Shown here: positions 7,442-19,896 of the stretch, piece after piece | Layout: each line of letters opens with the position of its first letter | Position numbering within the stretch: position 1 is the first letter of the stretch | Source of the DNA: Bdellovibrio sp. | GTDB taxonomy: Bacteria; Bdellovibrionota; Bacteriovoracia; Bacteriovoracales; Bacteriovoracaceae | NCBI GenBank assembly: GCA_022729855.1 | Contig: DZBG01000006.1 | Span: 1-48,662, forward strand | Direction of reading: 5' to 3' | Length of the DNA stretch: 48,662 nt | The notes under the pieces: model-generated | Databases searched by the model: none | Seen by the model: only the letters and a program-made list of their open reading frames with translations | Told to the model about the DNA's origin: nothing | Program-made: the position numbers and the translations under genes

Positions 7442-8740
7442 ATGTCTAATCCCTCTCATGAGTTACTCTCATCTCTTAATTTTTGCGTCATCGATTTAGA
7501 AACGACTGGCGGAAATCCTGAAATTGATAAAATCATCGAAATTGGAATGGTTAAAATTGAAAATCTTAAGCTCACTGAAGAGCGAGATTATTTAGTGAAT
7601 CCAGAAAAAGAAATTCCGGAATTCATCCAAAAGCTTACTGGAATTAAAGGTCATGATGTGGCCCACTCACCAAAGATCGAAGAAATTATTGATGAAGTTG
7701 TTCAATTTATCGGAAATGACATCTTAGTCGCCCATAATACATCTTTTGATATTCCTTTCATTAATGGGATTCTCAAAAAATTAGGACGACCTACTCTTGA
7801 GAATAAAGTTATTTGTACTAATGTCATGACTAAATATTTGATCCCAGACATCATGAGTTCAAACCTTACTTATATGAGTCAGATCTTTGATATTGAACAT
7901 TCTCATGCTCACCGTGCAGATGAAGATGCCAAGGCTTCAGGCAGATTACTTTTAAAATATCTCGAAATTTTTGAGAAAAAAAATATTAGAAAAGTGAATC
8001 AACTTTATTACCCAAGAAACCGTTTTGAACTTGATCGCGTGAATATTGAAAACTCAGAGGGTCTGCAAAAAGTAGATGAAGTCCTTAGGACCATTGATCG
8101 CCCTATTATTCTGACAGTGAAAGGTGATAATGGAGTGATTCTTACGATTTTACCAATTAAAGATCCATCAAAAGAAGCAGATCAATTAAAAGTTTTCCTT
8201 GATGAATACCGCTGGGATCAAATCAGCATCCGCCTTTGTGGACCATTTCTTGAGGGCTTATTTTTTCTTACTCAAAATTTTGTAAAAATCCCTGAATTTT
8301 ATCGTCAAAAGACTGTGGATTATTTCACTCAGCAGTACGGCCCTTTTAATTCAGAGAACGTATTTAATAAGTATGATTTCCTTGTGACTCCTCATTTGAT
8401 CTCAGGGCAGTTGATTGTTTTCTCATTTCTAAATTTTTCAACTTATAGCCAGCTTGTTTTTAAATATCCCGCCCACAGGAAAAAACTCAATCAGTTTTTG
8501 CTAGGCCAGATTGGAAGATATGAAGTCCAACAAAAAGGGAAACGAAAAATACATATTCAAAATAGTATTAAAGAAGTGGTCGAACATCTTTTTGCTCAGG
8601 AGCTGATTGCTAGACCTGATCTCTGCCTTCCTATTTCAATCGGTGAAATAAAAGAAGATACGAAGGGATATTTAAGTCGCATTGAAAAATGGGCAGAAAA
8701 GACCGCTAATCTCTTTAATTTTCCAAAGAACCATCTTTAG
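7442..8740 (+). CDS. DEDDh 3'-5' exonuclease-domain protein (DnaQ/PolC-type) with novel C-terminal half
   Basis: The N-terminal ~175 residues form a DnaQ-like exonuclease: DLETTG (Asp18, Glu20), the VNPEKEIPEFIQKLTGI helix, AHNTSFDIPF with the third Asp, and HRADEDA with the fourth Asp and the catalytic His. All DEDDh residues are present, so 3'-5' nuclease activity on DNA or RNA is expected. The remaining ~255 residues are unfamiliar; they contain no obvious helicase, polymerase or GIY-YIG motif. The gene follows cdd by 42 bases with an AAGGATC site and may belong to the same transcript, which would place a nuclease beside nucleoside salvage. It converges on, and overlaps by 26 bases, the histidine-kinase gene. 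It is not the replicative epsilon subunit by length; its role is open. Confidence 0.85.
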   Translation: MSNPSHELLSSLNFCVIDLETTGGNPEIDKIIEIGMVKIENLKLTEERDYLVNPEKEIPEFIQKLTGIKGHDVAHSPKIEEIIDEVVQFIGNDILVAHNTSFDIPFINGILKKLGRPTLENKVICTNVMTKYLIPDIMSSNLTYMSQIFDIEHSHAHRADEDAKASGRLLLKYLEIFEKKNIRKVNQLYYPRNRFELDRVNIENSEGLQKVDEVLRTIDRPIILTVKGDNGVILTILPIKDPSKEADQLKVFLDEYRWDQISIRLCGPFLEGLFFLTQNFVKIPEFYRQKTVDYFTQQYGPFNSENVFNKYDFLVTPHLISGQLIVFSFLNFSTYSQLVFKYPAHRKKLNQFLLGQIGRYEVQQKGKRKIHIQNSIKEVVEHLFAQELIARPDLCLPISIGEIKEDTKGYLSRIEKWAEKTANLFNFPKNHL

Positions 8741-10436
8741 GTGGATGGTATATAAAGCGTAAAGAATACTCAGTGGTTTGAAGAACTAAGTTCTCAATCG
8801 TAAGTAAATTCTGAATCAGTTTTGAAAATTTAAATGATGAGATATTCAACTCAGATAATTGAATTTGAATCTCTTGAGAAGATTCAATGATCTCTCCTTT
8901 AATGACTTTCTCAAGTTTGTTCTGATCAGAAATTAAAAGATGGTGAGAGTATAAAGTCATGAGCTCCCCCAAGATCAAATAAAACGTCATCGTCAGTAAG
9001 CTCAAGTTCACTGATGGCCTAAATTCTGTATGGCATGAATACTCAAATGAGAAACGAATCCCACTCTCTACAGTTCTAAAGCGAAGCAAATTTTGTGCTT
9101 GTTCATAACACAACTTCACGACACTTTGTTTGGCCTCAAGACTTGAAGCCGTCCTGCTAGGTGTCGCTCGTGAAAACCCTAAGAAAGTTTCCACTAACTG
9201 CTTACACCTCATGGCCCCATTTTTCATCTCAATCAAAATTTGACGAGACTCTTCAGTCAGTTCTTCATCTAACATCATAAAGCTCAGTGCGGCCTGAATT
9301 CCAGCGATTGGATTATTTAACTCATGAGCAATGGATGAGCTGATAATACCTAATTCTTGGCCCGAGGGAGTAAGTCCCCCTTGATCCTTTAAGAAAAAAC
9401 TTTCTGTAAAAAAAACAAAAAGATATTTGATTTCATCAAGATGGTAGATTTCTTTCCTGAAAATATTATAAGGAATATCATTAATGAGAATTTTTTCTCG
9501 GTGTTTTAAGCGAAGGCAATCAACTGGTGTATTTGAGAACTTCGAGAACAATGTATTATGCTGAAGAAGCTCCCCCTTACTACTCATCAAGCTCACAGGA
9601 AATGGGATAGCATCAATGGCCTCTTCCCAAATTCCTTCCGAACTAAAAGGATCGGCGACAATTTGATTTGAAAATAAATAATTAACAAGGGTGAAATAAA
9701 AGAGATAGGCCTTCACGAGCTCAATTGAATCAAGATTTTCTTTACCTAAGAAGATAAAGAAAGATTGGTCTCTATAAGGAGGCAATGGCAAAAGATTTTC
9801 AGAGTCAGGAAGAGATTCAAAATCACTTGATGATAAAATTTGAATCTTTCTTTTATTAAATCCAACTTTTCCGAAGTTCTTAATATTTTTATCTATTTCA
9901 TTAGCATTTTCAGACTGAATCAATTGTTTTTCAAATTCACCTAGAAGTTGAGAATAACTCAGAAGCTCATCATGCCCGAGATTTTCATTCTTAATAATGT
10001 TTTTAACTTTTACTTCAAACTTCTTTAGATTTTTAACAGCAAGCTGCTCTTTCTTCTCAAAGGCAAATGAAGACTTCTTCTGCCATAAAGGAGTTAAGAC
10101 AAATTTTAATTGCTCAAAATCTATTGTGTCATCGAGTAAGAAATCCATTTGTGAGTCATCAAGACTTTGCCCATAACTAAACAAGCTTTGAGTGGACTCA
10201 ACAATTCCAATGGCAAAAGAATCAGGGATTTTTTTAAACTCAGTAAATGAGTCTTGTCCCACAATAAAAACATTGATCTTTTTATGATCAAGTTTGAATT
10301 CACTCGGAAGATTAAATTCTTCCTGGATTGAGTCTTCAAAATGATTAAGAATACCCTCAATATGTTTTCTTAAAGTTGGAGAAAACTTATTATCAAAACG
10401 AAAATGAAAATATTCAGAAACTGCGGCTAGGTTCAT
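8715..10436 (-). CDS. PAS-HisKA histidine-kinase-like protein lacking a recognisable ATPase domain
   Basis: A 573-residue cytoplasmic protein with no signal peptide or membrane segment. Residues 1-260 are unfamiliar and largely helical, ~270-345 look like a PAS fold (AIPFPVSLMSSKGELLQHN...), and ~360-425 are a HisKA dimerisation helix pair with the H-box IAHELNNPIAGI (His371). The C-terminal ~110 residues occupy the place of a HATPase domain, but I cannot find the N, G1 or G2 boxes (NxxxNAxxH, DxGxG, GxGLGL). It may accept phosphate from another kinase or act as a dimerisation platform. Last gene of the ftsE operon, its start overlaps the M23 stop by 4 bases (ATGA), suggesting a link to cell-wall state. 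No response regulator is adjacent. Confidence 0.75.
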   Translation of the reverse strand: MNLAAVSEYFHFRFDNKFSPTLRKHIEGILNHFEDSIQEEFNLPSEFKLDHKKINVFIVGQDSFTEFKKIPDSFAIGIVESTQSLFSYGQSLDDSQMDFLLDDTIDFEQLKFVLTPLWQKKSSFAFEKKEQLAVKNLKKFEVKVKNIIKNENLGHDELLSYSQLLGEFEKQLIQSENANEIDKNIKNFGKVGFNKRKIQILSSSDFESLPDSENLLPLPPYRDQSFFIFLGKENLDSIELVKAYLFYFTLVNYLFSNQIVADPFSSEGIWEEAIDAIPFPVSLMSSKGELLQHNTLFSKFSNTPVDCLRLKHREKILINDIPYNIFRKEIYHLDEIKYLFVFFTESFFLKDQGGLTPSGQELGIISSSIAHELNNPIAGIQAALSFMMLDEELTEESRQILIEMKNGAMRCKQLVETFLGFSRATPSRTASSLEAKQSVVKLCYEQAQNLLRFRTVESGIRFSFEYSCHTEFRPSVNLSLLTMTFYLILGELMTLYSHHLLISDQNKLEKVIKGEIIESSQEIQIQLSELNISSFKFSKLIQNLLTIENLVLQTTEYSLRFIYHPPKDGSLEN

Positions 10437-11302
10437 TCTTTAAATTGTTTTTTAGTTTGCTCAGCAAGGTCAATCCCATCAATATACTGACCATGAATTT
10501 TTACACCCCAGTGTAAATGAGGGCCTGATGAGCGTCCAGTACTTCCTGCAAGACCGATAAGATCTCCACGCTGAACAATTTGTCCAGACTCAACAAGGGT
10601 TTTAGAGAGATGACCATAGACAGTAAAAATATCAAGTCCATGGTCAATAATCACAGTCCAACCTGTATAGAATAGGTCTCCTGAGAATACGACTTTTCCT
10701 CTATTGGCCGCTGGAATTTTTTCACCGACAGGAGCACGAAAATCAGTTCCAAGGTGTTGTCCCTTGTGTTGTTTATTATAAGTTCTTCTTATTCCATAGA
10801 TGCTCGTGACATAAGAATTAAGAGGCACCTTAAAGGCTGTTTGAAAATAAGGAGTTGAAACAGAACTAGCATAAATATTATTTAAGACTTCCTGTTCTTT
10901 TGCCACACGTAATAAATCTTTTTTTCTTAAGTTGATTTTACGACCATCAACTTTCAGTTTTTCTTCAGGAAATTGTTTTTTATCAACTTTAAATTCTACA
11001 GCAACAACTTCTTTTCTTGCTTCCTTTAATAAACATTTAAAGCCACTCATGTCAGAGAAGTATGATTCGGCCACATAGGCAATATACTTATCGCCTTCAC
11101 TATAAAATTTGTATTTGTTGTCTCTACAAACCAGTTCCGCTTTTTCAGACATTCCATTTTTATCAAAAACAACTCTTCTGGCTTCACCTGGGCGAATTTC
11201 AACTTGGGGAGCCTTTGAAAGGATTTTTCCATTACTATTTGTCGAACAACCAAAAAGTGCGAGTGAAAATAAAAGGCTGATAATTTTCTGATTTCTAAAC
11301 AT
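10433..11302 (-). CDS. Lipoprotein M23 (LytM) metallo-endopeptidase
   Basis: Predicted outer-membrane or periplasmic lipoprotein that cuts peptidoglycan cross-links. The signal peptide ends in the lipobox LFGC (Cys19). The N-terminal ~140 residues are a strand-rich region of unknown fold. The C-terminal LytM domain (~165-275) retains all zinc and catalytic residues: HLGTD (His183, Asp187), YGHLS (His231) and PHLHWG (His262, His264). It should therefore be an active enzyme, in contrast to the EnvC-like protein of the same operon. Start at 11302 has AAGGA 7 bases upstream. It lies 9 bases after xseA and overlaps the kinase gene by 4. Which peptide bond it cuts is not readable; a prey-wall target is possible but speculative. 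Confidence 0.88.
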   Translation of the reverse strand: MFRNQKIISLLFSLALFGCSTNSNGKILSKAPQVEIRPGEARRVVFDKNGMSEKAELVCRDNKYKFYSEGDKYIAYVAESYFSDMSGFKCLLKEARKEVVAVEFKVDKKQFPEEKLKVDGRKINLRKKDLLRVAKEQEVLNNIYASSVSTPYFQTAFKVPLNSYVTSIYGIRRTYNKQHKGQHLGTDFRAPVGEKIPAANRGKVVFSGDLFYTGWTVIIDHGLDIFTVYGHLSKTLVESGQIVQRGDLIGLAGSTGRSSGPHLHWGVKIHGQYIDGIDLAEQTKKQFKE

Positions 11303-11311
11303 GGCCTATCC

Positions 11312-12583
11312 TTAAGCTTTTTTGACTTTTCCTTCACCATCGTGAAAGTGAATGGAAAACGATACTTCTTTATCTAATTTATCAAAATCTAACTTAGAAG
11401 AAACGACTGAACGCTCCTTGGTTTCAATAAAACTATATCCCCTCTTTAAGACATCTTTAGGAGAGAGAGCACAGAGAACCTTATAAAAGCTTGAGAGCTT
11501 CTGATTAATTCTCTCTGGCCATAATTTAAACTGGTGAGAAAACTTGTTATAAACCTCATCTAGCTCCATTTGCTTCTGATGTAGTCCAATGAGAATTTCT
11601 CCACGAGAATGAAACGACATCTTGGCCAATCTGTTCTTATAGTTCTGAACACCTTCGCTAATTTTTGAAATCATGGCACGTGGGTGGTAATGCTCTTTCT
11701 TTTTTGCAATCTCGTAGAGACTTGTCTGCATATTTTTTTTGAGATGGGCAGAGACCGTTTGCATTCTATTTTTAAGTACTGTCTGAGGCTGAGAAAGAGT
11801 TTCTGCTGCTGCCGTTGGTGTTTCACAACGAAGATCGGCCACATAATCGGTTAATGAATAATCAACCTGATGTCCGATGGCACTTATTGTAGGATGTTTA
11901 TATCCTGCGAGTTTTCTTGCTAGTCTTTCATCATTAAAGGCCCAGAGATCCTCTAATGATCCTCCTCCACGCGCGAGAACAACCACATCGATATCATCTC
12001 TTGTCTCAAGATAAGTCAGCGCCTTCAGGAGAGAGGGAGCCGCTCCGTCTCCTTGAACAAGACAAGGAAGAATTAAAATATCAAACCAGAGAGCGCGTCT
12101 TCTCATAACTTCTAAAAAGTCTTGAAGAGCAGCACCTTGCTCAGCCGTAAGGATGGCAATTTTTTTTGGGTAAACGGGGATTTGTTTTTTGCGGTCTAAA
12201 TCAAAGAGTCCCTCGCTGGCGAGTTTCGCCTTTAATTTTTCAAACTGAAGTTTTAATTTACCTTCGCCTGCTGGGATGATTCTTTTTACAATTAATTGAA
12301 AGGTCCCTCGTTTTTGATAAACCGACAAAGGACCGAGCACTGCAATTTTGTCTCCGTCCTTGATATTTCTTACGAGAGGATTTCTTAGTGCATCTCCTTT
12401 AAAAAGAGCACATGAAATCGATGCCTCATCATCAGAGAGATTGAAATACCAATGCCCAGATGCTGAAGTGGAGAGATTTGTGACTTCCCCTTCAACCATG
12501 ACCTCGTGAAACTCCGACTCAAGTTGTGACTTGATGGCCGAGACGAGTTCTGAAACACTGGCAATATTATAACCTTCTATCAT
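11312..12583 (-). CDS. xseA: Exodeoxyribonuclease VII large subunit
   Basis: Large subunit of ExoVII, which degrades single-stranded DNA to short oligonucleotides. The N-terminal OB fold (~1-100) carries VEGEVTNLSTSASGHWYF and ISCALFKGDA. The catalytic region has the family stretches VYPKKIAILTAEQGAALQDF, the ARGGGSLEDLWAFNDE block (~200-215) and HPTISAIGHQVDYSLTDYVADLRCETPTAAAE (in pieces, ~229-262), and a coiled-coil C-terminus follows. Length (423) is slightly shorter than E. coli XseA (456). The start overlaps the ctpA stop by 4 bases (ATGA). No small-subunit gene (xseB, ~70-80 residues) lies next to it, which is unusual; it must be elsewhere in the genome. Its place between a protease and a peptidoglycan hydrolase is odd. 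Confidence 0.95.
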   Translation of the reverse strand: MIEGYNIASVSELVSAIKSQLESEFHEVMVEGEVTNLSTSASGHWYFNLSDDEASISCALFKGDALRNPLVRNIKDGDKIAVLGPLSVYQKRGTFQLIVKRIIPAGEGKLKLQFEKLKAKLASEGLFDLDRKKQIPVYPKKIAILTAEQGAALQDFLEVMRRRALWFDILILPCLVQGDGAAPSLLKALTYLETRDDIDVVVLARGGGSLEDLWAFNDERLARKLAGYKHPTISAIGHQVDYSLTDYVADLRCETPTAAAETLSQPQTVLKNRMQTVSAHLKKNMQTSLYEIAKKKEHYHPRAMISKISEGVQNYKNRLAKMSFHSRGEILIGLHQKQMELDEVYNKFSHQFKLWPERINQKLSSFYKVLCALSPKDVLKRGYSFIETKERSVVSSKLDFDKLDKEVSFSIHFHDGEGKVKKA

Positions 12584-14013
12584 TTCTTAGTATGAAGAAA
12601 TTGATCGTATTCTCTAAACGACTCAAGATATTTCACAGCTTGGAGGACTTGGTAGTCTTCATTTGGTGCGTAGGCTTTAAAAATTTCATCTTCCGTATTT
12701 TTATTCTTGTTAGCTTTAGCTTCTTTTCGTTTTTGCTCAATAGATTGAATACGTTCTTGACGCTCTTTTTTCTCTTCAGCTTCTCTAATCACTTTCTCTT
12801 CAGGCGTTTCAATTGAAGCAGTGAGATGATTCTTAAGATCTTTTTCTCTCACATAACGATCATCTCTTTTTGCCTTTGTGTAAGCGACAAAATCGACATC
12901 ATCAATAAGAACATCAGGAGTAATCCCCACGGCCTGAATACGGCGGTTAAGTGGAGTCATATACTGAGCAATTGTCAGCTTCACTCCCGTTTCTTTATCG
13001 AGTTGGGCCACCGTTTGTACTGACCCTTTTCCAAACGACTGAGATCCCATAATGATGGCACGTTTATAGTCTTGAAGAGCACCCGCTACAATTTCAGAAG
13101 CGGAAGCAGATGATCCATTGATAAGAACAATCATGGGAGTTGTTAAATCTTTAAATCCTGATTTTTTCACATAACGAATATCTTTATTTTGGGGATCACG
13201 AGATTCAGTTGAAACAACAATTCCATCTTTTAAGAAGATTGATGAGAGATCAACAGCTTGATCAAGAAGACCACCTGGGTTGGCACGAAGATCAAGAATG
13301 ATCCCACTGACTCCACCCTTCTTCTTGGCCTCAGTTTCCATTTTCTTGAGAGCTTTCTCAACTGATTCAGCCGCACGCTTTTGAAATTGAGTCAGTCTGA
13401 TATAAGCGTAGTTTCCACTAATAAGTTCAGATTTGACTGGTTCAACTTTGATGATCTCTCTTTTAATCGTGAATTGCTTAACCGAGTCTTCACCTTCGCG
13501 AGAAATACCAAGGGTGATCTTCTGCCCTACTTTACCACGCATCTTTTCCATAACTTGATCAAGAGAAAAACCGATGATCGATTCGTGATCAATTTCAACA
13601 ATTCTATCTTTTGCAAGAATTCCCGCTTTGAATGCCGGAGTATCATCGATCGGTGTAATAACAATAATTACACCATCTTTTTGAGTCACTTCAATACCGA
13701 GACCCCCGAACTCACCGGCCGTATCATTTTGCATCTTTGCAAAAAAATCTTTATTCAAAAAGTTTGAATGTGGATCGAGAGTATCCATCATTCCTTTAAG
13801 AGCACCTTCAATGAGTTTCTCAGTACTCACTTCACGGTAGTATTGAGTTTCGATTAAATATAAAACTTTATTAAATAATTCTAATTGCTCAAAGCGACCT
13901 TTGTTTTCAGAGATCTTTGGAACTGGTGAGGCGAGAATTTTTTTCTCTTCTTTGGCATAGGCCATATTAAAAACAAATGAACTGGCCAAGGCCAGAGTTA
14001 AAAGAGATTTCAT
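12580..14013 (-). CDS. ctpA: C-terminal processing protease (S41 family)
   Basis: Periplasmic serine protease that trims or degrades envelope proteins. A Sec signal peptide (MKSLLTLALASSFVFNMAYA) is followed by an N-terminal helical region, a PDZ domain at ~85-165 (GGLGIEVTQKDGVIIVITPIDDTPA, in pieces) and the S41 core. The Ser-Lys dyad is visible as NGSSASASE (Ser) and GSQSFGKGSVQ (Lys). A Lys/Glu-rich, probably coiled-coil C-terminal stretch (~405-450) follows. I prefer the ATG at 14013, with GGAG 6 bases upstream, over a TTG at 14025. In Pseudomonas aeruginosa CtpA degrades M23-type peptidoglycan hydrolases, and here it shares an operon with two LytM proteins, so they are plausible substrates. 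It overlaps xseA by 4 bases. Confidence 0.93.
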   Translation of the reverse strand: MKSLLTLALASSFVFNMAYAKEEKKILASPVPKISENKGRFEQLELFNKVLYLIETQYYREVSTEKLIEGALKGMMDTLDPHSNFLNKDFFAKMQNDTAGEFGGLGIEVTQKDGVIIVITPIDDTPAFKAGILAKDRIVEIDHESIIGFSLDQVMEKMRGKVGQKITLGISREGEDSVKQFTIKREIIKVEPVKSELISGNYAYIRLTQFQKRAAESVEKALKKMETEAKKKGGVSGIILDLRANPGGLLDQAVDLSSIFLKDGIVVSTESRDPQNKDIRYVKKSGFKDLTTPMIVLINGSSASASEIVAGALQDYKRAIIMGSQSFGKGSVQTVAQLDKETGVKLTIAQYMTPLNRRIQAVGITPDVLIDDVDFVAYTKAKRDDRYVREKDLKNHLTASIETPEEKVIREAEEKKERQERIQSIEQKRKEAKANKNKNTEDEIFKAYAPNEDYQVLQAVKYLESFREYDQFLHTKK

Positions 14014-14044
14014 AGGTAGCTCCAAGAGAGGCGTTTATACTGCT

Positions 14045-15058
14045 TTAGATTTTACTGACTTGATTGAGATCTAACCACAAAATAGTATTTTGGGCGGTGT
14101 TTTTCTTACGGATTTCAAAATAAAGATGATCAGCTTCCGAGCCTAATCCTTGGGTATATCCAAGAACTTCCCCATCTTTGACTTGATCGTTTTTCTTTAC
14201 TTTAATCGACATTTTACCAAGGATGACTGACCTTAAATCATTTCCATGATCTAACATGACAACCTGTCCATAACTGGCAAGATCCCCAGAAAAAACAACT
14301 TTCCCTGATCCAACTGCTTTCACAGGTTGAACTGCTTTGTATTTAAATGTGACCCCTTTAGGGCTTGATTGGTAACTTAAAAAATCTTCAAGTGGGCGAG
14401 CAAAGATTCTTTCTGCCTTCGCTTGTACTTTGGCCACAGGAGAAAAAGTTTGTTTAACTTTTGCTATTTTTTGATGAAGCTTTCTTTCTTGAAATTTTTC
14501 TTCAAGCTCATTTTTCTTCTCTACTTTAGTAAGATAAGTTTCCATTGCTGTTTTCTTGCGTTTTTCAAGCTCTGAGATAACAACTTGAAGTTCAGCTTCG
14601 TTCTTTTTAAGCTCATCAAGTTTAACAGTGAATTCATCAATCTTTTCTTGAAATGAGACGATCTCCTCACCTTTTTGCTTCCACTTATTTTGAGACGTTT
14701 GAAGCAGTTGGAGATGGGCCTTCTTTTGCCAGTCTTCAATTGTATCATCAGATTCTTGGGCCAAATAATTCATCAGAATTTTTTGATTATCAATTTCAGC
14801 ACGGTGCTGTTCATCTTTTAATTTATCAAGACGAGCTTGATACATTTTTAAGTCATCACCAAATTGCTTCATTGATTCAATTGAAGAGAGATAAAGATCG
14901 TTTTTTGAGCCAATCTCTTTTTCAATAGTATTAAGTTTTGCACCTAAGTGCAGGACCTCTTCTCTATATTTAGTCAGATCTCTGGGCATAGAAGGGGCCA
15001 CACTAAAAACTTTAGTGCTAAGCAGGGCGATGAATAAAGCAGCTGATACTTTTTTCAT
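14045..15058 (-). CDS. envC: EnvC-like murein hydrolase activator (coiled coil + degenerate LytM)
   Basis: Periplasmic protein with a signal peptide (cleavage near residue 20) and a long coiled coil (~28-205, rich in Glu/Lys/Leu heptads). A C-terminal LytM domain follows (~225-337: KAVGSGKVVFSGDLASYGQV, in pieces, and DHLYFEIRK). The domain lacks the zinc residues: no HxxxD motif precedes VGSGKVV, and the HLHW motif is DHLYFE. This is the hallmark of EnvC, which activates amidases rather than cutting peptidoglycan itself. The gene begins 3 bases after ftsX, the arrangement expected if its coiled coil binds the FtsX periplasmic loop. No amidase gene (amiA/B/C) is in the window. The assignment rests on architecture, degeneracy and operon position together. 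Confidence 0.85.
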   Translation of the reverse strand: MKKVSAALFIALLSTKVFSVAPSMPRDLTKYREEVLHLGAKLNTIEKEIGSKNDLYLSSIESMKQFGDDLKMYQARLDKLKDEQHRAEIDNQKILMNYLAQESDDTIEDWQKKAHLQLLQTSQNKWKQKGEEIVSFQEKIDEFTVKLDELKKNEAELQVVISELEKRKKTAMETYLTKVEKKNELEEKFQERKLHQKIAKVKQTFSPVAKVQAKAERIFARPLEDFLSYQSSPKGVTFKYKAVQPVKAVGSGKVVFSGDLASYGQVVMLDHGNDLRSVILGKMSIKVKKNDQVKDGEVLGYTQGLGSEADHLYFEIRKKNTAQNTILWLDLNQVSKI

Positions 15059-15061
15059 GAA

Positions 15062-15859
15062 TTAGTTATTTCTCCACTTCCAATCTTGCATTGAGAAAGT
15101 CCAAAAAACAGAAAATACCATCAAGAGAATAATCACATCAAAAACTTTTAGTGTTCCGTTAAAAATCCCAAGTCCACTAAAAAGAAGAACCACCACTCCA
15201 AGTCCTGAGGCTATGGATTTTGCGGCCACATATTTTTTACGCTGAAATCTCTCAATCAAATAACTTCTTGTTCTGAAGACATCATAACAAAGCCAAAAAC
15301 TAATCATCCAGGCCAGAGCGAGAATCGCAATAATTCCCCACGAACCAGAATGCTTTAAAAATGAATAAACCGGATGACCACTCATAGACTTTGCAATTTC
15401 TGGAAACCGGATGGCCCCAGAAGTAATATGATCTTTCCCACCAGTTCTTTCCACTTGGGCCTTGATAAATTGCATCGTCTCAACTGAGATCGTTTGATTC
15501 ATCACCACTTTAAAGGCAGTCATGAGTTCACTCGGGGCAGTCATTTGATAATCAGTCCCAAGCTCGGCGACAAGTTTGTTTAATTTCTCTTGGGCCTGTT
15601 GGTTCACTTTATCATCAACAAATTGAACACCTGGTAGAGAGCTCACTTTTGCAAGGAAGGCTTCTTTATCTACGGTTTGATCAATCACAATACTGAAGTA
15701 CGGATTCACCATCTTTTCAGGAGTTACTTTTTCAACAATTTGTTGAACCCAGGGACGATGAGTTAATGAGAACGCAAGTAAGCAGCTAAAAAAGAAAAAA
15801 CTAAAACCGCGAAAAACTGAGTCACCAATAGATTTACAAAATTCTTTTAGATAAAACAT
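15062..15859 (-). CDS. ftsX: Cell-division ABC transporter permease FtsX
   Basis: Inner-membrane partner of FtsE that relays ATP hydrolysis across the membrane to EnvC during septation. The 265-residue protein has the FtsX topology: TM1 at ~17-33, a periplasmic domain of ~130 residues (~35-170), then three closely spaced TMs (~172-190, ~208-230, ~235-253). The periplasmic region contains the family-style ferredoxin-like stretch VDKEAFLAKVSSLPGVQFVDD (in pieces). It is shorter than E. coli FtsX (352), mainly at the cytoplasmic N-terminus. It overlaps ftsE by 13 bases and is followed 3 bases later by envC. Sequence similarity of FtsX is always weak, so topology and context carry the call. Confidence 0.88.
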   Translation of the reverse strand: MFYLKEFCKSIGDSVFRGFSFFFFSCLLAFSLTHRPWVQQIVEKVTPEKMVNPYFSIVIDQTVDKEAFLAKVSSLPGVQFVDDKVNQQAQEKLNKLVAELGTDYQMTAPSELMTAFKVVMNQTISVETMQFIKAQVERTGGKDHITSGAIRFPEIAKSMSGHPVYSFLKHSGSWGIIAILALAWMISFWLCYDVFRTRSYLIERFQRKKYVAAKSIASGLGVVVLLFSGLGIFNGTLKVFDVIILLMVFSVFWTFSMQDWKWRNN

Positions 15860-16560
15860 GCATGCCCCGAATAGACTAAGCGTCCCTGATCAAGATGCGC
15901 GATCTTCCCAGGAAATTGTTTAATAAGTTCTTTATTATGAGTCGCCCACACGAGAGTGAGGCCCTTCTTTTGATTATAGTGATTGAGAAGTTCAAATAGC
16001 TTGTAACTATTGTCTTTATCGAGTGAACTAGTTGGTTCATCAGCAAGAAGTGCTGTTGGTTTACAAAGCAAAGCGCGAACCATCGCCATCTTTTGCTTTA
16101 GTCCGCCATTACAATCCTCCATCTTTTTCCCGAGACAAGACTGGATACCTAGATAGCGAGTCAGACTCTCCATCTCTTGATAAAAATCTGTCTTAGAAGC
16201 ATAGACACCAGAATCATAAGCGAGCCAAAGATTCTCTTCACAAGTTTTACGATTTAATAGTCTAAGATCTTGGAAAACGGTTGAAACAAAATGTTTTTCT
16301 GATCGCATAAAAGGCAGCACAGCTTTACCAGATGTCGGCTCAGTATAACCCGCGAGCACATTTAAAAGTGTGGTCTTTCCGGCACCAGAGGGGCCAGTGA
16401 CGAACAAAATTTCACCAGGGTAAATAGTTAATTGCACCGATTTCAGTGCCGGACTGGCACCAAACTCTACACTCAGATTATCTAAGTGAAAGAGGTACGA
16501 TTGCCGTAAAGGCGCAGAATTTTGAGAAAGAGCACGACCAGTTATCATCCTTGAACCCAC
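15847..16560 (-). CDS. ftsE: Cell-division ATP-binding protein FtsE
   Basis: Cytoplasmic ABC ATPase that drives FtsX. Walker A GPSGAGKT is at 56-63, the Q-loop Gln at ~97 (VFQDLRLL, an FtsE-typical segment), Walker B LLADEP at ~171-176, the D-loop SSLD follows, and the H-loop His is in WATHNKE. The signature loop reads CNGGLKQK instead of LSGGEQQR, an unusual departure. The start is taken as GTG at 16560, with GAGGG 5 bases upstream; an ATG at 16548 has no spaced ribosome-binding site. An N-terminal extension of ~20 residues precedes the usual family start. First gene of the seven-gene envelope operon, overlapping ftsX by 13 bases. A LolD-like role is the alternative, but the FtsX and EnvC neighbours favour FtsE. 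Confidence 0.9.
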   Translation of the reverse strand: MGSRMITGRALSQNSAPLRQSYLFHLDNLSVEFGASPALKSVQLTIYPGEILFVTGPSGAGKTTLLNVLAGYTEPTSGKAVLPFMRSEKHFVSTVFQDLRLLNRKTCEENLWLAYDSGVYASKTDFYQEMESLTRYLGIQSCLGKKMEDCNGGLKQKMAMVRALLCKPTALLADEPTSSLDKDNSYKLFELLNHYNQKKGLTLVWATHNKELIKQFPGKIAHLDQGRLVYSGHACFI

Positions 16561-16604: not shown

Positions 16605-16634
16605 ATTGTACCGAGTCTTAAAACGGATCGTAAA
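16605..16634 (-). promoter_or_regulatory. Possible sigma-70 promoter of the ftsE operon
   Basis: On the minus strand TTTACG (16629-16634) and TACAAT (16605-16610) are spaced by 18 bases, about 45 bases before the ftsE GTG. A TATAAT-like hexamer also lies nearer the gene but without a good -35 partner. Weak prediction by eye. Confidence 0.35.
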
Positions 16635-16654: not shown

Positions 16655-18082
16655 TCAATGTGTTATTATCCCTTCGGCCTTCAATAATTCATAGGTCGAA
16701 TCAGAACAGTAAACATTAGGAACAAAATTAAATTTGTTTTGAAGATCGGCGATCAGTGAATTCTCCACATCCCCTAGTAAGTAAACATCCCCATTATCCA
16801 TGAGTATTTTTGCAGGATCTCTTTCAAGAAGAAGATTGTCCTGAGTTTTAGTCTTCACAAGTTTTTTGCGTGATTTAACAAAGATAATATTTTTCTTCGG
16901 AATATCCACAAGGATCCAGTCTTTCTCAGTCCCTTTCTTTTTAAGAATATCCTGAATCTCTTTTACTTTATCTTGGGCCTTCTTCACGATCTTATCGTAA
17001 ACCTGATCTTCGTCCTGATTAAGCATTCTCTGCTTAAATTCATCGCATTTTACTGAGCGAGGTGGAATCGCAAAAAGAAGTCTATAGGCCAGATCTTTAA
17101 TACGAGGATTTTTATCAAAATCCCCATTCATATAATAAGTATGAACTTGGTTCATAAAATAGAGATCATTAAATCCATAAAACTTTGTTGGATCATTACT
17201 TATCATTTCCATCAATTGTGAGTAAGTATAAATCTTACCTTTCTCCAAGAGATAAAAACAAATCTCTTCAGCTATGGCATCAAAGCGCGCTCCACGAGCT
17301 GAGCGAACAACTTGTGAGTACCAAGCAAAGCGTGCCATTAGAAAATCTTCTACGGCGTGAAGAGCATTATGATGGATCGCAACCACATCATGTCCTGAGA
17401 TGTTCACACATCTGAAATGGTGAAGAAGATAATCTCTGTCATAAGTTCCATAACGAATTCCAGAATAATGAGCATCACGTAGGAGGTAATCCATACGGTC
17501 ACAATCGATTTCTGAATGAAGAACTTGGTTGGCCAGTACACTTGGATCCACACCTTTCACAAGGTTTGAAATCTTCTGAGGATCAAGACGATACTGCTTT
17601 AAGATAAATGTAATCCCGCCTTCATAGTCGGTATTCTTAATAATATATGATCCAAGATGTTCATGATCATCTGGGATACCCTTTCCATTCTTATCGTTAG
17701 TTGTGTCGCCATAACGGATATAGGCCATCTCTGTTGTATGCGAGAACATAAAAGTTCCCAAATCATGAAGAAGGGCCGCAAGACGAAGAGATTGGTGATA
17801 AATTTTTTCTGGAGTCTGAACTTTATCATCAAACAGATCAGCTTCAGGAACTGCTTTTCCAAGACGCTGAAGAATCTTATGGGCATTAAACATCACTCCA
17901 ATTGAATGACCAAAACGCGAGTGCTCCGCTCCAGGGAATGTATAACATGTAAATCCAAGTTGCTTGATCCAACGAAGGCGCTGATAAAATGGAGTGTGGA
18001 TGATTTCCCATTCAAGATTTGTGAGATTAACAAATCCATAAAGAGGATCGTAGATGATTTTATTTTTGCTATAAACTTCCAT
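16655..18082 (-). CDS. HD-domain (SAMHD1/YwfO-like, COG1078) phosphohydrolase
   Basis: Predicted cytoplasmic metal-dependent (d)NTP triphosphohydrolase. The N-terminus has the family opening YDPLYGFVNL, FYQRLRWIKQLG and TFPGAEHSRFGHS (His54/His59), then the HD pair in ALLHDLG (His106, Asp107) and the distal Asp in SEIDCDRMDYLLRDA. All four H...HD...D ligands appear intact. The C-terminal ~170 residues resemble those of COG1078 proteins. At 475 residues it is somewhat longer than B. subtilis YwfO (433). Substrate could be dNTPs (as in YwfO/SAMHD1) but is not proven. It stands alone, isolated by the terminator upstream (18093-18131), with a weak GGATA ribosome-binding site. Nucleotide hydrolysis would fit the nucleoside-salvage theme of the window. 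Confidence 0.88.
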   Translation of the reverse strand: MEVYSKNKIIYDPLYGFVNLTNLEWEIIHTPFYQRLRWIKQLGFTCYTFPGAEHSRFGHSIGVMFNAHKILQRLGKAVPEADLFDDKVQTPEKIYHQSLRLAALLHDLGTFMFSHTTEMAYIRYGDTTNDKNGKGIPDDHEHLGSYIIKNTDYEGGITFILKQYRLDPQKISNLVKGVDPSVLANQVLHSEIDCDRMDYLLRDAHYSGIRYGTYDRDYLLHHFRCVNISGHDVVAIHHNALHAVEDFLMARFAWYSQVVRSARGARFDAIAEEICFYLLEKGKIYTYSQLMEMISNDPTKFYGFNDLYFMNQVHTYYMNGDFDKNPRIKDLAYRLLFAIPPRSVKCDEFKQRMLNQDEDQVYDKIVKKAQDKVKEIQDILKKKGTEKDWILVDIPKKNIIFVKSRKKLVKTKTQDNLLLERDPAKILMDNGDVYLLGDVENSLIADLQNKFNFVPNVYCSDSTYELLKAEGIITH

Positions 18083-18092
18083 GTATATCCGT

Positions 18093-18131
18093 AAAAAAAG
18101 AAAAAGGGCCCTTCATCATGAAGGGCCCTTT
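18093..18131 (-). terminator. Strong intrinsic terminator of the regulator/small-protein transcript
   Basis: A perfect 12-bp stem (18103-18114 with 18120-18131, AAAGGGCCCTTC) with a 5-base loop is followed on the minus strand by a T-rich tract (18093-18102). It lies 9 bases after the stop of the 68-residue gene and just upstream of the HD-domain gene, insulating the two. A-tracts on the other side may let it work in both directions. Confidence 0.9.
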
Positions 18132-18402: not shown

Positions 18403-19896
18403 TTACTGAAGTTCACGTGCTTCGATCATTCCGTAGCTGTGAAGTTTGTTGTATAGCGTCTTAACTGTAATTCCAAGAGCTTTTGCTGCACGTGTCTTAT
18501 TACCATTAAGGTGGTCTAAAGTACCAATAATATGCTTTTTCTCAAGGTCAAAAAGCGTCATTTCAGAAAATTCGATCACAACTTCTTCAGCTACTTCAGT
18601 TACCACTTCTTTAGCAAATTCAGGAAGGTGGTCAGCTTCGATATATTGACCTTCAGAAAGGATATACGTTCTTTCCATTACGTTTTTAAGTTCGTGAGCG
18701 TTTCCTGGCCAAAAGTATCCACAAAGTTTTTCAAGAGCTGCAGAAGTAAGAATTTTAGCTTCTCCGTTTCCACGTTTTCCGTTAAGGAAATGCTCAGCAA
18801 GGTGCTTGATATCTTCTTGACGGTCACGAAGTGATGGAATCAATGCGTGAACTGTATTTAATCTGTAGTAAAGATCTTCTTTAAATGTTCCAGCTTCTAC
18901 TAGAGTTTTAAGAACGATTTTGCTTGTTACAACAAGACGTACATTTAAAAGAATGCGCTCATCAGAATCAACAGTCATCATTTCTCCAGCAACTAGTGTG
19001 CGAAGGATTTTTGACTGAATATTAAGTGAAAGTGATCCAATTTCATCAATAATAAGTGTTCCACCATTTGCTTGAACGAAAAGACCGTTCTTACCAAAAA
19101 GCTCTCTGTCCATTTGTGCTTCAGTAAAAGCTGAACAGTTAGAAAGAACACAAGCTCCTTTTCTTCCAGACCATTGGTGAATTTTGCGAGCAAGTTGCTT
19201 CTTACCAACACCGTGGTTACCTTCGAGAAGTACTGGAAAATCTTGAGCTGCTACTTTACGAGCAAGAGCAACTACATCTAGAAATCTTTTTGAGTGACCG
19301 ATTAGCTCACACTCACCATCTTGAATATGTGAACGAATTTCAACTCTATTAGTAAGTTCTTTATCTCTTGATTCGATTTTTGCCATGAGCTCTTTATTAA
19401 GATTTTGAGCTACTAAAAACATATGCATATTACGTAGTGGAGCATTGATTGCTTCTAGAACATCATTTACTAGAGCGATATCTGATTCACTAAATTGACG
19501 ATCTTTTTTAATTGATTGGATATTGATTGTTCCAATAACTGAACCATCAACCATCATAGGGATACAAAGCTCAGATTCAACACAGTCTTCTCTTTTCGAA
19601 GTTGAAGCGATTGGATCTCTTCTTACTGAATTTGAATAATAAGCTCTTTTAATTCTTGATACATATCCTGAAAGACCTTGGCCTTTAGCTAAAACAACTT
19701 CATTAACCGATTGTCCGTTCTCAGCGATTAAGCGAGTTGAACCATCATTAAGAGCAACAAACCCTTGAACCTTGTACTCACCAGTCATGTCATGAATTTG
19801 GCCAGTAATCTTAGAAAAGAAGACAACTTCGTTTAAGTTAGAAAGTAGAACTGTACAAAGAGTAGATAGTTCGTTGTTGAGTTGAGCAGCTTTCAT
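18403..19896 (-). CDS. GAF-AAA+-Fis regulator, bEBP-like but without the GAFTGA loop
   Basis: Transcription regulator of the NtrC-like architecture: a GAF sensor (~20-160), AAA+ domain (~193-420) and a Fis-type helix-turn-helix (~450-490, NGNKTRAAKALGITVKTLYNKL in pieces). Walker A is GNHGVGKK (225-232) and Walker B LIIDEI (281-286); an arginine-rich sensor region (LRDRQEDI) and WPGNAHELKN follow. Between ELFG (266-269) and GLFVQANGGT the usual segment carrying GAFTGA is absent. That loop contacts sigma-54, so this protein probably does not open sigma-54 promoters and may act as a repressor or sigma-70 regulator, as TyrR does. No receiver domain is present; a small molecule or redox signal to GAF is likely. 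It has its own promoter (19960-19988) and an AAGGAG site, and stands downstream of tolB. Confidence 0.88.
   Translation of the reverse strand: MKAAQLNNELSTLCTVLLSNLNEVVFFSKITGQIHDMTGEYKVQGFVALNDGSTRLIAENGQSVNEVVLAKGQGLSGYVSRIKRAYYSNSVRRDPIASTSKREDCVESELCIPMMVDGSVIGTINIQSIKKDRQFSESDIALVNDVLEAINAPLRNMHMFLVAQNLNKELMAKIESRDKELTNRVEIRSHIQDGECELIGHSKRFLDVVALARKVAAQDFPVLLEGNHGVGKKQLARKIHQWSGRKGACVLSNCSAFTEAQMDRELFGKNGLFVQANGGTLIIDEIGSLSLNIQSKILRTLVAGEMMTVDSDERILLNVRLVVTSKIVLKTLVEAGTFKEDLYYRLNTVHALIPSLRDRQEDIKHLAEHFLNGKRGNGEAKILTSAALEKLCGYFWPGNAHELKNVMERTYILSEGQYIEADHLPEFAKEVVTEVAEEVVIEFSEMTLFDLEKKHIIGTLDHLNGNKTRAAKALGITVKTLYNKLHSYGMIEARELQ

Follow-up and report, generated by a model that had tools for sequence, protein, structure and literature searches.

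A kinase-like protein without an ATPase signature in a conserved cell-envelope gene string of Bacteriovoracia and its probable sigma-54 partner

Introduction

Why does a gene for a histidine-kinase-like protein (HK) close a string of genes for cell wall cutting and processing, and on what partner could its product act? The question is raised by a stretch of 48,662 nucleotides (the window) from a draft assembly of Bdellovibrio sp., family Bacteriovoracaceae (GCA_022729855.1, contig DZBG01000006.1; the assembly has 2.80 Mb in 177 contigs), belonging to a group that includes bacterial predators. Seven open reading frames, encoding FtsE-like, FtsX-like, EnvC-like, CtpA, XseA, M23 lipoprotein and HK proteins, follow one another there on the minus strand from 16560 down to 8715, and their coordinates bear out the close packing on one strand (neighbouring genes −13 to +31 bases apart) that had been noticed in a sequence-only reading of this DNA. 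The spacing is −13 bases for FtsE/FtsX, +3 for FtsX/EnvC, +19 (TTG start) or +31 (ATG start) for EnvC/CtpA, −4 for CtpA/XseA, +9 for XseA/M23 and −4 for M23/HK, and the seven genes are presumably transcribed together.

In our opinion, there is an even chance that HK, as part of an envelope operon conserved in Bacteriovoracia, acts by phosphotransfer or as a phosphatase on a sigma-54 response regulator encoded on another contig (C31) of the same genome. This role is favoured because phosphotransferases derived from degenerate kinases and the control of wall hydrolases by the WalRK system are already known (PMC5898713 and PMC7299342). No description of the string or of the kinase–regulator pair was found in a literature search whose coverage left out most subscription journals. 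The adjacency of EnvC and CtpA genes is known already.

A histidine kinase without an ATPase signature

The sequence-only reading had listed the product of the last gene (8715–10436, minus strand) as a histidine-kinase-like member without explanation. The likeness stands, and in place of the missing explanation the protein can now be read as a kinase with an apparently eroded ATPase domain, its likely partner being a response regulator of the sigma-54 kind whose gene lies in another part of the genome. In the window protein Pfam recognises HisKA (E 5.4e-11) and no HATPase_c. The same picture was obtained for the class sample, which consisted of 53 HKs of the best 80 named loci, picked to be less than 70% identical: HisKA was matched in 53/53 and HATPase_c in 0/53 (E ≤0.01). 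The same kind of scan matched HATPase_c in 11 of 20 relatives from outside the class and is therefore able to detect this domain; HisKA was found in 73/73 proteins overall.

The phospho-accepting site is retained. His371, Glu372 and Asn375 are invariant in 53/53 class HKs, and the His and the Asn at +4 are equally invariant in the 20 out-of-class HKs, where the residue at +1 is Glu in 17 and Asp in 3, so that all 73 proteins have the His and the Asn, with Glu (70) or Asp (3) between them at +1. As regards the features of an autophosphorylating kinase, a DHp domain with its phospho-His is present, and no HATPase_c domain carrying the N, G1 and G2 boxes was detected; by eye, the G boxes and the lid are absent from the HK alignment, in which the window protein shares 21–30% identity with all but one of 25 others. 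A DHp domain kept beside a degenerate catalytic (CA) domain is the feature that HK shares with proteins of the ChpT, Spo0B and PhyT type.

The AlphaFold model of HK (mean predicted local distance difference test score, pLDDT, 81; predicted template modelling score, pTM, 0.42) suggests a receiver-like domain (residues 1–123), long helices, a GAF-like domain, a PAS-like domain (267–344), DHp (358–420) and a CA-like domain (424–567), these names being a reading of predicted secondary structure and fold matches. The protein is predicted to be soluble, with no membrane segments. VIA-align placed receiver domains over residues 1–123 (Z ~10.4) and the catalytic domain of ThkA over residues 424–568 (Z 10.2); its best rows were mammalian pyruvate dehydrogenase kinases (Z 10.5), a matter of fold likeness only. 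Foldseek matches include ZraS, HK853 and the RetS–GacS complex (7n0e). ChpT and Spo0B were not among the fold matches shown, which excludes nothing, and no match to a ChpT, Spo0B or PhyT family was seen when HK was scanned with Pfam and NCBIfam models, no direct sequence comparison having been made.

In the HK tree, the 26 sequences from the class stand on a different branch from the ten generic HKs, with supports of 100 and 97. If rooted on the generic HKs, this tree is compatible with class and out-of-class HKs forming one family; its root was not inferred, many of its forks are weak and the HK of family f24 (locus L247) sits on a long branch. When an out-of-class HK was used as a query against the class, operon HKs and generic HKs scored alike, and that search therefore leaves HK orthology unsettled.

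The probable partner, a regulator of the NtrC type

Outside the class, the relatives of HK usually have a neighbour of one kind. For 63 HK rows taken of the 103 out-of-class genomes with a match, second hits per genome being left out, a regulator of the NtrC type follows HK within 2.5 kb in 54; it lies about 4.7 kb further on in three, is found on another contig in one (f24) and was not found in 5/63 at E ≤1e-125. The three genomes with the longer distance (G180, G199 and G211) encode an HK with HisKA only, followed by an intact kinase composed of CHASE3, HisKA, HATPase_c, receiver and Hpt domains. Their loci (L300, L302 and L303) also hold a gene for a further receiver protein before the NtrC-type regulator, a single-domain protein in two genomes and, in the remaining one, an OmpR-like protein encoded on the opposite strand. 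Such an arrangement, known from these three genomes only, would suit a relay.

The surroundings of the out-of-class pair concern the cell wall as well, GlmU and GlmS being encoded close by in 17 of the 19 fetched out-of-class HK loci. In one of the loci (L217, 1–4726), glmS, glmU, a gene for an MpaA-like murein amidase (98 bits, below the cut-off of 157) and a gene for a HAD hydrolase stand beside the HK–regulator pair.

The genome of the window (G000) carries an orthologue of this regulator, with receiver, sigma-54 and HTH domains, at C31:56328-57833. The receiver with its Asp, the sigma-54 AAA+ domain and the Fis-type HTH, which are features of the NtrC type, are all present, and the domains were detected in 4/4 regulators scanned. 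In an alignment of 37 receiver rows, two genomes being present twice, the phospho-acceptor Asp is kept in 36/37 (the other row has a gap) and the conserved Thr and Lys in 37/37. As to its own surroundings, the regulator gene is near lipid-transport genes of the mlaE-mlaF-mlaD type in G000, G119, G004 and f24 (L284, L285, L286 and L301); among 30 short class loci, 10 have an MlaD-like gene within reach and 23 have metK adjoining the regulator gene.

Joint presence and absence of the two genes

Named relatives of HK were titled mostly Bacteriovoracaceae, Bacteriovorax or Halobacteriovorax, and the NCBI taxonomy places Bacteriovoracaceae in the class Bacteriovoracia of the phylum Bdellovibrionota. 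The class set searched contained 129 genomes of one family and 48 genera. HK was matched in 109 of them (E ≤1e-5; a few matches are weak) and the regulator, with the C31 protein as a query, also in 109 (E ≤1e-100). Both proteins were found in 103 genomes, HK only in 6, the regulator only in 6 and neither in 14 (Fisher p 5.7e-10, kinship ignored). For the 73 good genomes, with at least 90% completeness and at most 5% contamination, the corresponding numbers are 65, 0, 2 and 6 (p 1.6e-7, kinship again ignored). Both exceptions with the regulator only (G007 and G118) also gave no XseA match, which suggests gaps in the assemblies as the reason for them. In 193 out-of-class genomes the numbers are 94, 9, 4 and 86, with 12 genomes whose best regulator row was 44–46% identical scored as being without the regulator. 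On a species tree of 59 of the 129 class genomes, built from CtpA, XseA and FtsE, the states of HK and regulator match in 58 genomes, with five changes for the regulator and six for HK.

Several observations weigh against the pairing. The two genes are not adjacent in class genomes. Altogether 12 of the 129 class genomes are discordant, mostly as fragmented assemblies, some HK calls are weak (E 3e-6 in G054), and one of the six good genomes with neither gene (G064) lacks an XseA match too and may reflect an assembly gap. Tests corrected for kinship lack power (sign test p 0.25): with the regulator taken first, there were three independent well-supported pairs, concordant in nearly every pairing, and with HK taken first, three of four pairs were concordant, one showed no difference and none was opposed. 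HK is gone from some lineages that retain the wall genes, and the operon therefore works without it. Finally, a conserved sigma-54 site was not found ahead of ftsE, since only 4 of 57 regions have one.

Conservation of the string

The synteny that the sequence-only reading had proposed to look for in Bdellovibrionota is strongly apparent within the class. From 58 genomes of 43 genera, 60 regions were fetched, and in the 59 with at least two string genes no string gene of the main strand, to which this count applies, is out of order; region L091 (genome G060), with XseA on the opposite strand, is the sole such case among the 60. The string runs from FtsE to HK in 46 of 60 regions, 32 with all seven genes and 14 without M23 only, and in the remaining 14 either HK was undetected or the region was cut or split. 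In five regions CtpA and XseA are 1.5–6.9 kb apart. EnvC matches were obtained in 127/129 class genomes, some of them being other M23 proteins. Loci found by means of HK give a similar picture: of 131 named loci the best 80 were considered, and in 61 of these 80 FtsE-FtsX-EnvC-CtpA-XseA lie upstream (44 with and 17 without M23), and in 75 a convergent DnaQ-like gene lies downstream. Because the synteny is conserved in the class, the idea of a coordinated wall-remodelling operon, a predicted one, has gained support.

In 6 of 20 xseA-centred regions from outside the class FtsE, EnvC, CtpA and XseA occur together, followed by M23 in three of the six and by HK in one (L247 of f24); two more of the 20 are partial. 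Hence the core either predates the class or has been transferred, and the arrangement differs in several families: in 12 of the 20 regions (families f4, f6, f11, f21, f23 and f27) xseA is located away from the EnvC and CtpA genes. Nothing points to the role in prey invasion that had also been suggested, and there is no evidence either way beyond distribution, the string being class-wide, the core occurring in other families and not being seen around xseA in f6, which is probably Bdellovibrionaceae.

Proposed mechanism and its alternatives

The proposed course of events would be as follows. FtsEX would switch EnvC, which in turn would activate septal wall amidases, the M23 lipoprotein may act as a wall peptidase, CtpA may prune envelope proteins, possibly including M23 hydrolases, and XseA would be a long-standing passenger. 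HK, whose catalytic domain appears to be missing its ATP-binding part and which has kept the dimerisation helices, the phospho-accepting His371 and the HExxN motif, would act on the C31 regulator in the manner of ChpT, Spo0B or PhyT. Expression of envelope genes might in this way be set by the condition of the wall-cutting machine or by an internal signal perceived via the receiver-like, GAF-like and PAS-like part.

An alternative of a different kind, which we regard as possible and still rather doubtful, is that the operon limits its own wall-cutting through CtpA, degrading the M23 lipoprotein and perhaps EnvC, with HK and XseA being incidental. CtpA (12580–14025, minus strand) is a processing protease with PDZ and S41 domains (Peptidase_S41 E 5e-52; TIGR00225 330.9 bits, above the cut-off), the Ser-Lys dyad of which is present, with the SASASE and FGKGSVQ motifs kept in 56–59 of 59 sequences per position. 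The M23 lipoprotein (10433–11302, minus strand; Peptidase_M23 E 5.8e-30) is most similar to the Pgp3 model of NCBIfam (215 bits, below the cut-off of 300). Its HxxxD and HxH motifs are intact, His183, Asp187, His262 and His264 being found in 42/42 homologues and Cys19 in 38/42, so that the activity ascribed to it earlier as an active LytM-type protein is well predicted; of the two M23 proteins of the string it is this one, and not the EnvC-like one, that has the zinc motifs of active enzymes. According to PMC12569750, CtpA of Pseudomonas aeruginosa degrades wall endopeptidases and sits in an envC-ctpA operon, by analogy with which a CtpA–M23 balance would be plausible, and CtpA and M23 share one string in the 32 complete regions. 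However, 14 of the 46 regions spanning FtsE to HK keep CtpA and HK without M23. In 15 genomes where M23 is missing from the string or the string ends short (these 14 and G007), a homologue of 33–50% identity was found elsewhere in 11, and none was found in G004, G005, G007 and G126 by genome searches at E ≤1e-20. M23 is not fixed beside CtpA, which weakens a direct balance between the two.

The phosphotransfer or phosphatase role has also to be weighed against an HK that performs no phosphate chemistry at all and, like RetS and DivL, either pairs with an active kinase in mixed dimers or holds a receiver. Retention of the DHp helices and the RetS–GacS co-complex (7n0e) among the fold matches agree with this, and a repurposed kinase has reportedly been described in the division control of Caulobacter (PMC4211667). 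Nevertheless, the His and the Asn at +4, invariant in all 73 proteins, are more than would be expected of a pure scaffold, and the regulator retains its phospho-Asp; we therefore regard this explanation as unlikely.

It is similarly improbable, in our estimation, that the gene order is stable without functional coupling, XseA and HK being passengers of an old operon. XseA (11312–12583, minus strand; TIGR00237 395 bits, above the cut-off) is not known to have a role in the wall, and a similar stability is seen for the DnaQ-like and PunA-like genes of the opposite strand. Mere passengers would hardly explain that HK and one distant regulator are missing together where the remaining string genes are retained, or that the out-of-class relatives of HK adjoin other wall genes, namely glmU and glmS and, in L217, that of the MpaA-like amidase. 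That HK has remained kinase-active, its catalytic domain having diverged beyond what Pfam recognises, is very improbable, since, in spite of the predicted CA-like fold and its match to ThkA, the G boxes and the lid are absent by eye and HATPase_c was matched in none of the 53 class HKs versus 11 of the 20 relatives.

Comparison with known systems

Degenerate kinases working as phosphotransferases include PhyT, Spo0B and ChpT, and a protein of the PhyT type was first proposed to be a phosphatase (PMC5898713). Like HK, these proteins keep the phospho-His of DHp beside a degenerate ATP-binding domain, as described there. HK differs from them in that HisKA alone among its Pfam matches recurs throughout the family, in its receiver-like, GAF-like and PAS-like parts, in its probable sigma-54 partner of the NtrC type and in being encoded in a division-wall string. 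WalRK of Bacillus subtilis is a two-component system coupled, as is proposed here, to wall hydrolases, an FtsEX-dependent one among them (PMC7299342). However, WalK is an ordinary sensor kinase, whereas HK looks kinase-dead, has no membrane segments and is paired with a regulator of the NtrC type. In P. aeruginosa the EnvC gene is likewise directly followed by the CtpA gene, and CtpA, together with LbcA, controls wall endopeptidases (PMC12569750); unlike here, the operon envC-ctpA-PA5135 consists of three genes, the last being an orthologue of a peptidoglycan deacetylase gene, and contains no FtsEX, XseA, M23 or HK.

A broader proposal, to which we give somewhat less than an even chance, is that Bdellovibrionota possess a wall-linked pair of a kinase and a sigma-54 regulator, in which the ATPase domain was lost in several lineages, the protein now being a phosphotransferase or phosphatase. 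In Bacteriovoracia and in f24 (one genome) the disarmed kinase would have its place in the ftsEX-envC-ctpA-xseA string, with the regulator unlinked, and the whole would be a Gram-negative counterpart of WalRK. Gene order and joint absence tie the division wall-cutting machine to a signalling pair, the kinase of which cannot be an ordinary one. Both intact and eroded ATPase domains occur among the relatives in the phylum, and a change from kinase to phosphotransferase or phosphatase could therefore be traced within one family. A distant and testable partner gene has been named, one that would have stayed hidden from a reading confined to the genes of the window. If the proposal is true, the septal wall-cutting machine is made together with a signalling protein built on a kinase unable to make its own phosphate.

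FtsE, FtsX and EnvC

Of the septal activator FtsEX–EnvC that the sequence-only reading had recognised, the EnvC part with an inactive LytM domain is well founded, and the names FtsE and FtsX rest partly on context, namely gene order, overlap and hydropathy. The EnvC-like protein (14045–15058, minus strand; Peptidase_M23 E 1.9e-21) has an M23 domain in which the zinc-ligand motifs are lost throughout the family, HxH being replaced by HLY with Tyr313 in 57 of 59 sequences.

For the ABC ATPase (15847–16560, minus strand; ABC_tran E 5.5e-26), the NCBIfam model with the highest score is FtsE, which gives 139 bits and so stays under its cut-off of 264.85; this model ranks the protein sixth in the genome, after five other ABC ATPase places with up to 206 bits. 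Its Walker A and B residues are kept in 52–57 of 57 sequences per position. The ABC signature of the FtsE-like protein has Asn151 in 53/57 homologues, at a position where Ser is usual.

The FtsX-like protein (15062–15859, minus strand) has no Pfam or NCBIfam match and was recognised by its position, the overlap of 13 bases with FtsE and its hydropathy: the hydrophobic stretches 14–33, 171–197 and 209–260 fit one N-terminal and three C-terminal membrane helices. Wherever it was detected (54/54 regions), it lies within 60 bases of both FtsE and EnvC. In Escherichia coli, FtsEX–EnvC is an amidase-activation system composed of an FtsE ATPase, an FtsX membrane protein and an EnvC with an inactive LytM domain. 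The putative counterparts here are encoded in one string, EnvC beside FtsX and CtpA, with an FtsX not recognised by family models and an FtsE below its cut-off.

Flanking genes and signals

A gene for an NtrC-like activator, in which a GAF domain replaces the receiver according to Pfam domains, is located at 18403–19896 (minus strand) and recurs upstream of the string across the class. It was considered as a partner of HK and thought unlikely, because it stays in 7 of 11 regions without detected HK; in these regions the domains of the NtrC-like gene were unchecked, and the other four start or end before the gene or are split.

A sigma-54-like box of the GG-N10-GC form is present ahead of ftsE at 16613–16598. 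The four regions with such a box come from the window genome and three genomes of one near genus, and mononucleotide shuffles gave a mean of 0.46 regions. Nevertheless, a sigma-54 promoter ahead of ftsE is not claimed, window-wide matches being at the level of chance (18 versus 19.3 expected). Sigma-70-like sites in the window are also at chance (24 versus 28.3 expected), and terminator-like sites number 12 versus 8.1 expected.

One of the latter, a strong one, is a perfect GC-rich palindrome at 18131–18103 (minus strand), whose 13 paired bases lead into a T-rich tail. It lies about 20 bases ahead of the start of a gene for an HD-domain protein and, judging by its sequence, probably separates this gene from the NtrC-like one and ends the transcript of the latter. 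The HD-domain gene (16655–18082, minus strand; Pfam HD E 2.2e-07), a recurrent neighbour, is placed 94 bases upstream of FtsE and possibly belongs to the same transcript as the string. At the other end, the HK gene and the convergent DnaQ-like gene have 26 bases in common.

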